In this document: positions 11,001-18,227 of the stretch, in pieces
Position numbering within the stretch: the first letter of the stretch is position 1
Layout of the letters: each line of letters opens with the position of its first letter
Source: Cohnella kolymensis
Lineage (GTDB): Bacteria; Bacillota; Bacilli; Paenibacillales; Paenibacillaceae
DNA: 64,000 nucleotides
Direction of reading: 5' to 3'
Assembly (NCBI RefSeq): GCF_000829465.1
Contig: NZ_JXAL01000028.1
Coordinates: 1-64,000, forward strand
Made by a program: the position numbers and the translations under genes
Notes under the pieces: model-generated
Told to the model about the DNA's origin: nothing
Databases searched by the model: none
The model's input: only the letters and a program-made list of their open reading frames with translations

Positions 11001-11563
11001 GCAGATGCTTACCTACTTGGACGTTGTCGTATCGCATGCCCCGCATTGGCTGGGGCGGCCGGCGCAGCCGGCAGGAGTGCTGTATTTCCACGTGCAGAAC
11101 CCGCTCCTGCATACGGCGAATGGGGTGTCGAAGGAAGAAGCGGAGGATTTGATGTTCCGCAAGTATCGGATGCAGGGGTTGCTGCTGGCGGACGGGGAAT
11201 CAGTCAAGCTGATGGACGAATCGTTAAATCAAACAACGAAGTCCGCAGTCATCCCCGTCGAGTTCAAAAAAAGACGGCAGCTTCTCCGCGCGTTCGCAAG
11301 TGGCCGACTCCACGCAGTGGGACGTATTGCGTTCTTCGGTGCGATCGCAAATTCGCCGTATCGGCAAAAGAATCGTCGAAGGCGAGGTTGCCATTAAGCC
11401 GTACCGGATGGAACGCCGCAGCCCTTGCACACATTGCGAGTTTCGGCCGGTCTGCCATTTTGACAGCCAAGTGGAGGGAAATCCATATCAGGTTTTACAT
11501 AAGCCGGGCAGCCGCGATGAATTGTGGCAGAGGCTTGCAGCACAAGGGGGTGTAACGGAGTGA
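8033..11563 (+). CDS. addB: ATP-dependent helicase/nuclease subunit B (AddB), two frameshifts
   Basis: Subunit of the AddAB double-strand-break resection machine (RecBCD equivalent). The GTG at 8033 gives MSLRLVTGRSGSGKT with the Walker A motif, and GGGGG lies upstream. The reading frame breaks twice. Near 8669-8675 it breaks after WLDGFH; FTPNEFAVLEALMRR continues in another frame. At an A7 run (11266-11272) it breaks after VIPVEFKK; DGSFSARSQVADS continues in the first frame. Repaired, the protein is about 1176 aa, normal length. Nuclease-domain residues (IMDYKSSAVKLKLDE) and one cluster cysteine (VSCPF) lie in the middle piece. The CTHCEFRPVCHF cysteines lie beyond the second break. If the breaks were real, the iron-sulfur domain would be lost. 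A sequencing error is more likely. The stop overlaps the addA GTG. Confidence 0.9.
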
Positions 11564-14500
11564 CATTGTTGAGACACTGGCCGGTTAAACCGGACGCCAG
11601 CCGTTGGACGGACGAGCAATGGACGGCAATTGCCGCAGACGGTTCGAACCTTCTCGTGGCTGCAGCTGCAGGTTCAGGGAAGACGGCGGTGCTGGTCGAG
11701 AGAATCATATCGCGCATCGCGGACGAGCAGCGTCCGCTGGACGTCGACGCCATGCTGGTCGCAACGTTCACCAAGGCCGCGCCGGCTGAGATGAAGGAAC
11801 GGATCCGGCACGCGCTGGACGAAGCGCTGCACAGAGATCCGGACTCCCGCCACCTGCGCCGCCAGCTCGCCTTGCTTCCCAGAGCGTCCGTAACGACGCT
11901 TCACTCCTTCTGTCTGGAAATCGTGGAGCGCTACGCCCCTTTGATCGAATTGGACCCCGGCTTTCGCATGGCGAATGAGACGGACGCTGAGCTGCTGCGT
12001 ATGGACACGCTGGATGAATTGTTCGAGGAAAGATACGAGAACGAAGGAGAGTCGGGGGCGCTCGCCCAGCTTGCCGATCACTTCGGCGGCGAACGCAGCG
12101 ATGAGCCTCTTCACCGGCTCGTACTGGAGCTGCATGAGTTTGCGGGAAGCCATCCCTGGCCTGAATATTGGCTGCAGCAGATGTCGAAGCAGTTTCAAGA
12201 GGCGGAAGCCGAATCGCTGCTTCAATCGCTCTGGGTCAAAAGCCTGAGGGACGACGCCGCGCTGCTGCTGCAAGGAACGCTGCATCTGCTGCGGAGCGCC
12301 CTTCGTATCTGTCATGAGCCCGCAGGTCCCGAACCGTATATCGATACGATATTCGCAGATATCGATGGTTTGGAAAAGGCGGCTGATGCTTTTGACAAGG
12401 GTGCATGGACGGATTGGCAGACGGCGGTGTCGGCGATTGCCTTCGGCCGGTTGAAGCCGTGCAAAGGGGACGACTATGACCCTCTGCTGCAGGACAGGGT
12501 GAAGTCGCTTCGGGATGCGACAAAGAAAGCTGCAGCGAAGCTGGCTGAAGAATGGCTCGTCCGTTCGCCCGAGCAATATGCCGCCGAGCTTAGGGACCTG
12601 GCGCCTTCCATGAGCCAGCTGTCGGAGCTGACGGCGGAGTTCGGCCGCAGATACGAGCACGCGAAACGAGCGAAGGGGCTGTTGGATTTCGGGGACCTGG
12701 AGCACTATGCGCTGCGCATCCTCCGGGATCCGTCGTCCACTCCCGAGCATACCGTGCCTTCTGCTGCCGCCCTTAATTTTCGGGAACGATTCTCGGAAAT
12801 TTATTTGGATGAATACCAGGATACGAATGAAGTACAGGAAGCGATCGTCTCTCTCATCTCGACCGTACAACCCGGCAACGTATTTATGGTCGGGGACGTC
12901 AAACAGAGCATTTACAGGTTCCGGTTAGCGGAGCCCGGGCTTTTCCTGGAAAAATACAGAACCTATGAGACGGCTGACCCTGCCGCGCACAGCGGCTCCA
13001 TGTCCGGCGTCGCAGGACTCCGCATCGATCTTGCCCGGAATTTTCGCAGCCGCCGCGAAATCGTGAACGGAGTTAACCATGTGTTCCGCTTGATCATGCG
13101 GGAACCGGTGGGTGAAATGAACTACGACGGGGCGGCAGAGCTGATTTATGGGGAGGGCTATCCCGATGCCGGAACGCCGAATCCGTATGCCGTAGAAATG
13201 ATATTGTTGGATTCCGCAGGCACAACGGATACTGCCGAGGAGCCGCCACAAGGCGGAGAAGCGGCGGACGACTCGGCTCCCGATGAGAATACCGAAGTGG
13301 AAGATGCAGAAACGGCTCAGCTGGAGGCTCGCTGCATCGCCGCCGAGATCCGGCGCTTGATGGGGACAGACGACAAGGAATCGATGCCTTTCGCTGTGTA
13401 TGACGGCAAAAGCAAGCTGCACCGTCCGGTTCAGTATCGGGACATCGTCATTCTGCTGCGCGCGGTGTCCGCACAAGCGCCGGTGTTCCTCGATGAGCTG
13501 AAGGCGGCGGGCATTCCGGCCTATGCGGATCTGGCTACCGGGTATTTTGCGGCTACCGAAGTGGATGTGATGCTGTCCCTGCTTGCGATCATCGATAACC
13601 CTCACCAGGATATCCCGCTGGCAGGGGTTCTTCGCTCTCCGATTGTCGGTTTCACTGCGGAACAGCTCGCGCAGGTGCGTCTGAGCCGGCGCTCAGGCAG
13701 TTTCTGGGAAGCGCTGAACGCAGCTTCAGAAAGTGTGCAAGACGCGTCGCCTGATGGCTTCAGGGAGACGGCCGCGGGCTTTGTGAGCAAACTTGAAGGC
13801 TGGCGTGATTTCGCGAGACGCGAGCCGCTTGGAGATTTGCTGTGGATGCTCTACCGGGAAACCGGCTATTACGACTTCGTCGGCGGTCTTCCGGGCGGCG
13901 TCCAGCGGCAGGCGAATTTGCGGGCGCTTGTGAATCGGGCGACGCAGTATGAGAAGTCGTCCCGTTTTCGCGGGTTGTTCCGGTTTCTGCGTTTTCTCGG
14001 CAGGATGAGGGATTCGGGGGCGGATCTCGGCGCGGCCCGCGCACTGGGTGAAAGCGAGAATGTGGTACGGATCGTGTCCATCCACCGCAGCAAAGGGCTG
14101 GAGTTCCCGGTTGTTTTTGCCGCGGGGCTTGGCCGGGGTTTTAACAAGCGTGATTTGAACGGAATGTTTTTGAAGCATAAGAAGCTTGGCTTCGGCCCCA
14201 AAGTCGTCGAGAAGGAGACGCGTGTAACGTATCCGACGCTGCCTCAGCTTGCAATCCGCAGGAAGATGGCTGCAGAGATGCTCGCCGAGGAAATGCGGGT
14301 GCTGTACGTAGCTCTGACAAGGCCGAAAGAGAAGCTGATCTTGGTTGGTACGAGCAAAGACGCTGCGAAGCATGGGAACAGTGGCAGGAAACGGCCGCGA
14401 TGTCCGAGGACGGGCTGCCCGATTATGCCGTTGCCGCGGCCAACCGATATCTCGACTGGCTGGGCCCGGCTGCCGTCATCGCGTCCGAATTGCCGGAGGA

Positions 14501-15419
14501 CACTCGCCGATGGACATGCAGAATCGTTCCTTCCGTCGTTTACACCCGGCAAGCTGCAGCAGTGCGACAGGCGGAACCGGATGCCGAGCGGCTGTGGGAG
14601 GCGGTACGGAATGCCCGGGAGATTGATGTGCCGGTTTCCGAAGCTGCAGAGGAAGTATCCCGGATCCTCTCATGGAAATATGCGAATGAAGCTTCGACTC
14701 AGGTCGCCGCGAAAACTTCCATTACCGCTTTGAAGAAGAACGACGCATCGCCGCCGTCACCGGTGATCGGCCACGATGATTCTTCACTGGATCAAGAGAA
14801 GGAACGACAATCCGCTGAGGGATGGGATGAACCGCCTGTTAATGCCGCAAGTTCGTTTCGATTACGGCGGCCTCAGTTTATGTCTGCCAGAAGCCTGAGC
14901 CCTGCGGAAAGGGGCACGGCATTCCACCTCGTCATGCAGCATCTGCCGATGACAGATGGAATCGATGAGAATACGATCACGGAGATGCTTGATTCGCTGG
15001 TTGCCAAACGCATCCTGTCCGGCGAGCAGCGGCAGGGTGTAGACGCGGCTGCAATAGCAGTCTTTTGCCGAACACCGATTTACGATCGGATGCGCGCCTC
15101 CGCTCGAGTATGGCGAGAGGTGCCATTCACCTACGGTATCGCGGCTGACAAAGTATACCCAGGAGTGAGCGGTCTGCCTGCAGAGGAAACCGTCATTATA
15201 CAAGGGGTCATCGACTGCTTGTTCGCAGAAGACGACGGCTTGGTTCTGGTCGACTATAAGACAGATGTGCTTAAAGGATTGGCAGGAGAGGAAGCTGCGG
15301 AAAAGCATCGGTTCCAGGTGGAACAATATTGCGGCGCGGTGTCAGCCATTTTAGGACGGCCCGTGAAAGAAGCATATGTATATTTCTTCGACGGCGGCCA
15401 AACCGTTCGTTTAGTCTAG
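11560..15419 (+). CDS. addA: ATP-dependent helicase/nuclease subunit A (AddA), one frameshift
   Basis: UvrD-like helicase plus nuclease subunit of AddAB. GTG at 11560 overlaps the addB stop as GTGA, with AAGGGGG upstream, showing tight coupling. Walker A is LLVAAAAGSGKTAVL and Walker B is IYLDEYQDTNEVQ. Helicase motifs include VGDVKQSIYRFR, VRIVSIHRSKGLEFPVVF and VLYVALTRPKEKLILVG. The frame breaks at about 14361-14366 (GACGCTGCG appears to lack one base); CEAWEQWQETAAMSEDG continues in the next frame. That downstream frame carries the RecB-type nuclease motif LVLVDYKTDVLKG near the C-terminus. Repaired length is about 1286 aa, as expected. Without repair the nuclease domain is lost. Confidence 0.92.
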
Positions 15420-16035: not shown

Positions 16036-16152
16036 CACCGCATTAAGAAAGCCCTCGCGTCATTTGCAATTAAACCGCTGGCAGCGGCTTAATTCATCCG
16101 GCGACGTCATTTCACTGCATTTAAACCACTGACACCGCACAGGAAAGCCCTG
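16031..16152. repeat. Imperfect duplicated segments between a membrane-protein gene and a terminator
   Basis: TGACACCGCA-x-GAAAGCCCT occurs near 16031 and again near 16130. Between them CGTCATTT...TTAAACC-CTG occurs twice (about 16057 and 16106). The arrangement is A-B-B-A in direct orientation, with many mismatches. Confidence 0.5.
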
Positions 16153-16187
16153 ACGATTGCTTTTACCGGCAATCGTCAGGGCTTTTT
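16144..16187. terminator. Strong bidirectional terminator
   Basis: AAAGCCCTGACGATTGC (16144-16160) and its exact complement (16169-16185) enclose an 8-base loop, with T-runs on both strands. It separates the converging 200-aa membrane-protein gene and the TetR-oxidoreductase gene. Confidence 0.9.
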
Positions 16188-16207: not shown

Positions 16208-18151
16208 TTATTTTGCCAGAGCAAGCTCTACTTGTTCCAACAGCATCTTGGCCGCGATGCGGGCGCTGGAGAATGCGCGTTCCGCAAGCTCTCCTTTGCC
16301 GGCACAGCCGTCTCCGCAGAAGTAGAAGGGCACGCTCTCCATCCGGTTAGGCAGGAGCCGGTTGCCTGCGACGTTCTTCACGCTTTGCACCATCGCTTTT
16401 TTGCTCATCCGCTTCACCGTCACGGCATCGCGCCAGCCGGGATAATGACGGTCGAACAGCGCTTCCATCTGCGCTTGGCGTTCGTCCAGATAGGCCCGCC
16501 GGTCGGTGTCTCCGCCGAACGATTCGTCCGACAAATAGGCTACACCCTGCAGAAGCTGGCCGCCTTCGGGTACGAGCGTGTGGTCCGTAGCCGAAACGTC
16601 GGTAATAAACATTTTATTATTCATATCGCTGATATAAGAGAACGGACGGTTCACCACATGGCTGAGACCGACGTCATATACAAGCACTTCGGTCGCTGTA
16701 TTGGCTTCATAATCAGCCATAAACGGCTCCCACGGGGTTCCTTTTAACAGCTTAACTACCTGCTGTGACGGCATGGCGAACACGACTCTGTCGAAGGCTT
16801 GCTCGCGGTTTTTCGTAGTCAGCAGATACTTGCCGTTCTCATAACGGATCCCGTCCACACCTTCTTGCACCGCCGTCTCCCAGCGCCCGGATGATTCGAT
16901 CTTCGCTTTCAATTGATTGGTGATAACCGCCCAGCTTCCGAGAATATAATTCACCGGTTTCTGAGAGAGAAAAAGATTGTGGTAATAGTCGCTGATGACA
17001 TGACCCGGTACGCGTCGCGCGTCCTCGGGAGAGATAAAAAAGTTGGAACAGACAAGGTGCTCCCACAGCTCTTTCAAATCTTCGTCCTGGCTGGTTTCCG
17101 CCAAATAGTCTCCCAGAGTCGGGTATTTGCGAAGCTGGTGAATATTTGCGATCATCGCGCTGATTTCGGCTACGAATCGAACCTTTTGGCCAGCGGAAAG
17201 TACATCCGTTTTGACCAAATTGACGAAATCGAGAGGGGCAGGCGTCACCTTTTCCCCTTTTTCGTACATAACCTTGCGTTTGTCCACTTGTTTGCTGGAG
17301 AAATTCAAATCCAATTCCTTCTCCAGCTTGGCAATCGTGTGGCGGTCAATGCCGTAAATCGCATGAGCGCCGTAATTTAATGTGAATCCGGATTTCTCAT
17401 AAGTAAAAGCGCGGCCGCCCCACTGCGGACTGCGTTCGAATACGACGCCGCGCACTCCTGGAGATTGACTCAAATACGCCGCGGCAGTCAATCCCGCCAA
17501 ACCTCCGCCTATTACTGCCACTTCCATGACCGGTTCCTCCTCTAATGCCATGCCCGTCGAATCCGGGCTCTCTTGATTGTCATGACCGGATTGCGTTTCA
17601 TTGTTAATTCCGCGCCAGGCCCAATATAAATTGCTGCGAAGCGCCTCTTCCAGATCCGGATGAGCGCCCGCTGCCCAGCTCCATAATGTTCCGCTATAAA
17701 TATCGTGTAAATAGACCGCTTTCCGCCGATCCTCCAGCCAATGCGCCAGACAGTCGATCAAGGCCGCCGCCAGCTGCTGCTGCGCCTTGCCGAGCAGAGG
17801 CTCTTGCCCGCTCATCGAGTAAAGGCTCCTGACCAGCCGGGGGCTGTCGCCGAGAGCTTTGGCCAGCTCGAGCAGCAAGCTGTTAACCCGGCCCGCGGGA
17901 GAAGCGCCCTGTGCAAAGGCGCGCTGCGTCCATGCCTCCACGATGGCGAGCTGGCGGAGCGGAAGCTCGCTCAGCAGCTCTTGTTTGCTGTGGAAGTAGT
18001 GGTAGAACGTGCCCTTCGACGTGCCGGTCGCCTCTATGATATCGCTTACGGAAACTTGATCGTAGCCGCGCTCGGCGAAGAGACGCAGGGCAGTCTCCAC
18101 GGCATGGGCTCTTTTCGTACGGGTGGACGCCCGCCAAATAGGAGTTTTCAC
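16208..18151 (-). CDS. TetR-family regulator fused in frame to FAD-dependent (phytoene-desaturase-like) oxidoreductase
   Basis: A single 647-codon frame. Residues about 12-60 form a TetR DNA-binding domain (ETALRLFAERGYDQVSVSDI followed by ATGTSKGTFYHYFHSK), then a helical TetR ligand domain to about residue 190. After a polar linker, residue 209 starts MEVAVIGGGLAGLTAAAYL, an FAD/NAD(P)-binding GxGxxG fold of the amine oxidase/phytoene desaturase type. The C-terminal FAD motif is FYFCGDGCAGKGELAERA. The GTG at 18151 has AAAGGGAG 8 bases upstream. The internal ATG at 17527 has its own AGAGGAGG 8 bases upstream, so the oxidoreductase (439 aa) is probably also made separately. The fusion could be genuine, or could arise from an indel that removed the TetR stop: one neighbouring frame has a TAG directly before the internal AGGAGG. 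Substrate unknown. Confidence 0.8.
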   Translation of the reverse strand: MKTPIWRASTRTKRAHAVETALRLFAERGYDQVSVSDIIEATGTSKGTFYHYFHSKQELLSELPLRQLAIVEAWTQRAFAQGASPAGRVNSLLLELAKALGDSPRLVRSLYSMSGQEPLLGKAQQQLAAALIDCLAHWLEDRRKAVYLHDIYSGTLWSWAAGAHPDLEEALRSNLYWAWRGINNETQSGHDNQESPDSTGMALEEEPVMEVAVIGGGLAGLTAAAYLSQSPGVRGVVFERSPQWGGRAFTYEKSGFTLNYGAHAIYGIDRHTIAKLEKELDLNFSSKQVDKRKVMYEKGEKVTPAPLDFVNLVKTDVLSAGQKVRFVAEISAMIANIHQLRKYPTLGDYLAETSQDEDLKELWEHLVCSNFFISPEDARRVPGHVISDYYHNLFLSQKPVNYILGSWAVITNQLKAKIESSGRWETAVQEGVDGIRYENGKYLLTTKNREQAFDRVVFAMPSQQVVKLLKGTPWEPFMADYEANTATEVLVYDVGLSHVVNRPFSYISDMNNKMFITDVSATDHTLVPEGGQLLQGVAYLSDESFGGDTDRRAYLDERQAQMEALFDRHYPGWRDAVTVKRMSKKAMVQSVKNVAGNRLLPNRMESVPFYFCGDGCAGKGELAERAFSSARIAAKMLLEQVELALAK

Positions 18152-18212
18152 GTTGCACACTCCCTTTCGTATGCCATTATACGATCGTGCGGAGCCTTTT
18201 TCCAATAGAAAT

Positions 18213-18227
18213 TAGACTGCCGGTCTA
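18213..18227. promoter_or_regulatory. Palindromic TetR-type operator
   Basis: TAGAC-TGCCG-GTCTA is an inverted repeat of the kind bound by many TetR/AcrR repressors. It lies 60 bases upstream of the TetR-oxidoreductase start and 95 bases before the divergent HIT gene. Autoregulation is inferred. Confidence 0.6.

Follow-up and report, generated by a model that had tools for sequence, protein, structure and literature searches.

Among the closest described systems is trifunctional PutA (proline utilization A), in which an N-terminal DNA-binding domain and a flavoenzyme are carried on one polypeptide that acts as an autogenous repressor, its domains being a ribbon-helix-helix (RHH), PRODH and P5CDH (PMC5293562). 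The gene that we describe here from Cohnella kolymensis resembles PutA in that a DNA-binding domain is joined to a flavoenzyme; with a predicted operator in its own promoter it may also be an autogenous repressor. It differs in that a TetR domain is combined with an enzyme of amine-oxidase/desaturase fold, and in an internal start, kept among relatives, from which the enzyme would be made by itself. RHH, PRODH and P5CDH were absent among the 8 Pfam families matched by it (TetR_N plus FAD/NAD-binding or amine-oxidase families only), and it would thus be an analogue of PutA rather than a PutA. With TetR family repressors it shares the TetR_N helix-turn-helix, an all-helical second part and a predicted palindromic site in its own promoter, whereas here a 439-aa flavoenzyme is covalently attached. 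With the PF01593 superfamily (amine oxidase/carotenoid desaturase/HpnE) it shares the fold and the FAD-binding motif, but it has an N-terminal TetR domain and scores below the HpnE, crtI_fam and proto_IX_ox cut-offs. Genes with internal in-frame starts yielding a shorter C-terminal isoform are a known class, and this gene is like them in its internal Shine-Dalgarno (SD) and start for a predicted C-terminal isoform, but here the boundary falls exactly between regulator and enzyme. No described TetR-flavoenzyme fusion was found in a search of open-licence papers. An enzyme with its own repressor domain is known from PutA; what is new is the TetR version, whose internal start is conserved and which apparently originated twice. 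If our reading is true, TetR would be the basis of a further design, next to that of PutA, by which an enzyme controls its own gene, and an output of two isoforms would be built into it and conserved at the nucleotide level.

The gene lies on the minus strand of the window (the whole stretch of 64,000 nucleotides that was analysed), where the ORF listing and the sequence give an open frame with zero stops from 18205/18151 down to 16208 (Table 1). The initial annotation had read a TetR regulator and a flavoenzyme in one uninterrupted frame, and both were indeed found by Pfam in this single frame (TetR_N PF00440 at 65.6 bits, cut-off 24, E 3.5e-18; Amino_oxidase PF01593 at 73.4 bits, cut-off 19.8, E 3e-20). 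The GTG at 18151 which it took as the start is likely to be so, because AAAGGGAG stands 8 nt ahead of it, and it is favoured over the TTG at 18205, which sits inside the predicted promoter. As no stop follows the TetR half, the predicted products are of ~647 and ~439 residues, and a free 24-kDa TetR, which it had envisaged as one of the possible products, is not expected. The inverted repeat at 16147-16182 is positioned between convergent genes and is likely a two-way terminator, from which the fusion gene looks monocistronic. Elsewhere in the window an AddA-like helicase-nuclease gene (named by eye) appears to run in two overlapping frames, 11524-14733 and 14400-15419, a split (11524-15419) that is a probable frameshift, real or from sequencing.

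Table 1. Features of the fusion gene and its surroundings, in window coordinates
Feature	Position	Strand	Basis or remark
TetR-FAD oxidoreductase fusion gene	16208..18151	minus	GTG start, 647 aa plus stop
TetR_N helix-turn-helix (PF00440)	17963..18097	minus	Pfam profile match
Complete all-helical TetR half, residues 1-190	17582..18151	minus	AlphaFold2 helices 8-187
Linker between halves	17528..17581	minus	AlphaFold2 pLDDT and alignment
FAD oxidoreductase (PF01593/NAD_binding_8) of 439 aa plus stop, beginning with the internal ATG at 17527	16208..17527	minus	Pfam profiles, AlphaFold2, Foldseek
Internal Shine-Dalgarno AGAGGAGG, AGGAGG core 17541-17536	17536..17543	minus	conserved at -14 from internal start
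Shine-Dalgarno of full-length fusion AAAGGGAG	18160..18167	minus	read from sequence; duplex energy computed
Predicted promoter, -35 TTGGAA 18205-18200, -10 TATAAT 18181-18176	18176..18205	minus	consensus match only
Palindromic operator TAGACCGGCAGTCTA, predicted TetR-half binding site, 7 nt upstream of -35	18213..18227	minus	conservation of TAGACN5GTCTA
Perfect 13-bp inverted repeat GCCCTGACGATTG ... CAATCGTCAGGGC, 10-nt loop, A/T runs outside	16147..16182		read from sequence

An AlphaFold2 model built with 33 aligned sequences (mean pLDDT 84.3, pTM 0.64) gave a complete TetR protein, with helices from residue 8 and its helical C-terminal domain present through residue 187, followed by a flexible stretch and a complete flavoenzyme. 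Linker residues 190-205 had pLDDT under 50, and identity of the linker to 11 relatives was 10-43%, while the FAD Rossmann motif GGGLAGL was invariant across 12 aligned fusions. The first-ranked Foldseek match was 3ka7, a Methanosarcina oxidoreductase, and the top 50 included carotenoid desaturases, protoporphyrinogen oxidases and amine oxidases; on the model, the enzyme half is a FAD oxidoreductase of the amine-oxidase/carotenoid-desaturase fold. Three named families within this fold were considered and rejected, namely HpnE hydroxysqualene dehydroxylase (TIGR03467, only 76.9 bits against a cut-off of 283.05), the CrtI phytoene desaturase family (TIGR02734, crtI_fam, 36.2 bits against 238.1) and protoporphyrinogen oxidase (TIGR00562, proto_IX_ox, 56.3 bits against 97.85), and no NCBIfam cut-off was reached among the 25 models listed of the 40 matched. 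Matches listed in a sequence search of solved structures spanned only the first ~123 residues of the enzyme, and a PHROGs search gave weak matches only.

The initial annotation had suspected an indel artefact, in which a false base from sequencing or assembly joined two genes, one for TetR and one for the enzyme. In an evenly drawn sample of 392 genomes of the order, matches at a threshold of E 1e-60 were obtained in 139, of which 101 had the fused frame and 38 the enzyme half only, so that relatives do not always encode two separate genes; none of the 101 fused frames (99 of the window's type and 2 of a second type, counted from the listed rows) had a stop inside, and they came from six family groups (f1, f4, f5, f6, f7 and f8). 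In-frame fusions were present in single-contig genomes also. The 96-nt junction of 44 distinct fusions (a set, also used for the SD, operator and codon tests, in which identical copies are collapsed and L037, L123 and L139 are absent) held 0 stops in frame, whereas its alternative reading frames had 72 and 27, with at least one stop in 0/44 junctions in frame and in 34/44 and 18/44 in the alternative frames. Here as in the other tests the sequences are related, so that p-values do not refer to independent events. Both this and the 101 in-frame genomes argue against a false base, which we regard as highly improbable despite three points in its favour: the other apparent frameshift in the window (the AddA-like gene), a TAG in a neighbouring frame at the internal SD, and one relative (L146, genome G259) with its halves in different frames. 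The TAG, which had been noted before, is present at 17544-17542, but it is not telling, as stops are common in the alternative frames of that junction; it was also rejected as the remnant of a TetR stop, being unconserved by eye among the junctions inspected. The L146 pair is the only split one met, its TetR half and operator are still present, and because G259 is one contig at 84% completeness we suspect that the split is a sequence error, which is a guess. Annotating such frames as an error or as two genes would be wrong.

Judged from these sequences, the fusion is widely conserved in many soil bacteria related to Paenibacillus, so that the design of a TetR covalently joined to a flavoenzyme, which the first reading had thought unusual, is borne out over many genera. 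Carriers include Paenibacillus filicis, P. hemerocallicola, P. allorhizosphaerae, P. cymbidii, P. radicibacter, P. chondroitinus, P. aestuarii, P. contaminans and P. oryzisoli. At E 1e-60 there was no match in 253/392 order genomes, nor in 32 of the 37 genomes of the window's own genus (5/37 match). Among the 38 enzyme-only genomes the DNA was examined for 14 (L012, L013 and 12 more), and in 13 of these the TetR profile found no TetR beside the enzyme, the other being the two-frame G259; three enzyme-only genomes (G303, G393 and G398) align across one TAG ahead of the enzyme. In one genome (G165) a fused copy occurs alongside a second copy in which the enzyme stands alone (L147, L148).

Separate production of the enzyme from an internal start had been proposed from AGAGGAGG at 17543-17536, which ends 8 nt before the ATG at 17527 in the window, and this is supported by the retention of the signal across genera. 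An SD with an in-frame ATG at the domain boundary was found in 42/44 fusions; of the other two, L047 has a TTG start with AAAGGAGG in another codon phase, and L011 (G040; L011/L154) is without an internal start, yet its frame and operator are intact. A recount listing 67 frames, from which 14 re-fetched pieces were removed (L175, L176, L178, L179, L181-L186 and L188-L191), left 53 distinct fusions; 51 of them pair an ATG with an SD at or below -9 kcal/mol, L047 has the TTG and SD and L011 has none, so that internal SD plus start are kept in 52/53. Duplexes with the anti-SD of the 16S tail averaged -11.9 kcal/mol at the 42 junction ATGs (weakest -9.1). These genes contain 637 further in-frame ATGs, where the mean was -4.2 kcal/mol; 5.5% of these reached -9.1 and 0.9% matched the median of the junction set. 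In 42/43 fusions the core of the SD starts at -14, and the internal SD is close in strength to the first SD of the gene (-11.9 vs -12.2 kcal/mol, the internal one being stronger in 20/43), the first start having been picked heuristically by SD strength, which makes it an ATG in 27/44 and a GTG or TTG in 17/44.

The peptide across the internal SD is variable (KEE, KGE, KGD, REE, EEE, KEV) while the synonymous codons follow the SD: the Glu codon over it is GAG in 28/28 cases against a background of 48%, the Gly codon GGA or GGG in 14/14 against 37%, and the Lys codon is set by the next residue, with AAG before Glu in 20/22 and AAA before Gly in 10/14. This indicates selection on the nucleotide signal, and the codon usage shows the internal ribosome-binding site to be under selection at the DNA level, the rows being related and independent events therefore fewer than these counts. 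The lack of an internal start in L011 means that free enzyme is not needed everywhere, and natural variants suggest that some lineages can do with free enzyme and one with the fused form.

An exact TAGACN5GTCTA palindrome was found within 220 nt upstream of TetR in 40/44 fusions, whereas mononucleotide shuffling (200 rounds) gave a mean of 0.015 exact sites and at most 1. In the recount it was present in 48/53 fusions, which is 48/50 of the main clade, and missing in L007 (best site with 3 mismatches), L119 (only one-mismatch copies) and the three fusions of a second clade, L014, L015 and L194. No stand-alone enzyme had the exact operator (0/49, in 900 nt upstream, 804 in one), 21 of these belonging to the main clade and the others being distant enzymes that may never have had the main-clade TetR; a fiftieth 'solo' row is the split L146, which has the exact site, and one-mismatch sites were found at -612 and -257 of stand-alone L054 and L149. 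The operator therefore co-occurs with the TetR half, as far as can be read from DNA. Genome scans of 11 fusion genomes gave 1-3 exact sites each, with the own-promoter site matched in 10/11 (not in G050) and being the only one in G003, G030 and G013, from which local autoregulation is the simplest reading. A wider regulon drawn from the other copies was rejected, as these were no commoner than a reversed-pattern control (0-7 per genome). Three related species (L008, L009 and L010; genomes G057, G042 and G049) have a second exact TAGACN5GTCTA ~270 nt inside the TetR coding part, which may be a codon coincidence.

Taking these results together, we consider it likely that the gene encodes a bifunctional, autoregulated TetR-flavoenzyme with two isoforms of ~647 and ~439 residues made from one mRNA, so that the conserved fusion is probably a self-regulating enzyme. 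The TetR half would bind the palindrome in its own promoter and control transcription of its own gene. Translation of the mRNA from the GTG at 18151 would give the full fusion, and from the internal ATG at 17527 the free enzyme. An inducer, most simply the substrate or product of the enzyme, acting through the TetR pocket or the enzyme half, would lift the fusion off the operator and mRNA would rise, and as free enzyme would be made beside the regulator its output would scale with need. The fusion, the selection on the internal ribosome-binding site and the operator that accompanies the TetR half are shown by the sequences, and from these we infer DNA binding, repression rather than activation, the inducer, catalysis and the existence of both proteins. 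Weighing against this reading, 5.5% of the control ATGs equal the weakest junction SD, L007 and L119 have no exact operator, L011 has no internal start, most of the order genomes have no match, 38 matching order genomes manage without an in-frame TetR half, and the operator of the window, like that of 8 other loci, is placed just upstream of the -35 rather than over it, which would fit an activator also.

The position of the operator bears on whether, in the lineage of the window, the fusion might activate its own promoter. In 9/40 loci, the window included, 31-32 nt separate the end of the operator from the -10, and it lies just upstream of a -35 that matches TTGACA at 2 to 5 of 6 positions, as might be expected for an activator site. 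In 28/40 loci, however, it ends 8 nt before the -10 and extends over the -35 and into the spacer, so that TAGACY itself stands at the -35 (4/6 matches); of the remaining loci one has 9 nt, and L127 and L129 have 4 nt by script, with TATACT at 9 nt by eye. Six loci (L033, L035, L044, L118, L124 and L126) have two exact operators, 23 nt apart by eye, and the upstream site may thus be half of an ancestral tandem repressor pair. Repression is therefore favoured where the operator covers the -35 and activation may occur in the window's lineage, but self-activation seems to us quite unlikely, the least probable of the functional readings. In the double-operator loci one copy lies over the -35 and one just upstream, and other lineages keep one or the other.

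In an enzyme tree of 99 rows (49 fused and 50 alone) the fused/alone label takes 9 changes. In the TetR tree, which has long branches and a weak root, the main-clade TetR halves form one clade (98) that includes L037 and L146, these having been labelled free by a domain-picking fault and by the split frame respectively. The main fusion accordingly looks single, with several later losses of the TetR half, a polarity which is inferred since the root is not fixed by the tree. A second fusion clade (100/100), consisting of L014 and L015 (f4) and L194 (G429, f29), sits within stand-alone enzymes of Brevibacillus and Aneurinibacillus type (98/97 and 96/93) and is separated from the main clade by a 100/100 branch in the enzyme tree. 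In the TetR half, L014 and L015 share 20-22% identity with the window, and the L014/L015 TetR joins a Desulfosporosinus TetR (97) apart from the main-clade TetRs. All three members have an internal SD and ATG, and they share a repeat, ATGACCRTAGTA...RACTNYGGTCAT, starting at the -10 (three sequences, by eye). The simplest reading of these sequences is that one enzyme family was fused independently to two different TetRs, although a single ancient fusion, combined with numerous losses and a replacement of the TetR, would formally also account for them. A bootstrap figure of 0/200 for all fusions lying on one side of a branch was not used, as the main-clade losses alone prevent this.

L194 was found in a sample of the class, in which 109/398 genomes had a match and where a fusion to an unrelated TetR is revealed only as a long open frame (threshold 544 aa or more). 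Six further class matches with a frame of at least 544 aa (L205-L210) were inspected for third fusions, and by eye there was no TetR ahead of the enzyme in these.

The apparent second origin is relevant to whether the joint has any function. It might be a relic of read-through, in which an operon lost its TetR stop and the enzyme and TetR each work while the joint itself does nothing, as would suit an internal SD and start about equal to those of a normal gene and the stand-alone relatives without TetR in several branches. Against a relic, the frame has stayed open over deep divergence though a stop is easily gained, L011 retains the fusion without an internal start, and a fusion apparently arose a second time with another TetR, and so we think it unlikely. 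A somewhat better, though still doubtful, possibility is a switch like that of PutA, in which the enzyme acts as the sensor and binding of substrate or reduction of FAD directly alters how the TetR half binds DNA. Two apparently convergent fusions of one enzyme family to different TetRs, both having a repeat at the promoter of the fusion itself, would fit such a switch, and PutA is a precedent as an autogenous flavoenzyme-repressor (PMC5293562). However, the TetR half in the model retains its own full helical domain, and no rigid coupling is visible because the linker, besides being poorly conserved, is modelled as disordered. A role of the enzyme half as sensor of a ligand or of redox state on behalf of the TetR half is conjecture, and we suggest only tentatively that a TetR-based switch evolved at least twice in one flavoenzyme family, the enzyme half sensing substrate or flavin redox state and gating the repressor, with the internal ribosome-binding site supplying free enzyme. 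The role of the fusion could be tested through natural variants, namely the stand-alone copies without TetR or operator, L011 without the internal start, and the apparent re-invention.

Ten neighbours of distant stand-alone enzymes held no TetR by Pfam. HIT-, YqeY- and NfeD-like neighbours (names by eye) are common to the window, many Paenibacillus fusions and some stand-alone copies, for example L045; these conserved neighbours were rejected as a clue to the substrate, as they look like housekeeping genes.
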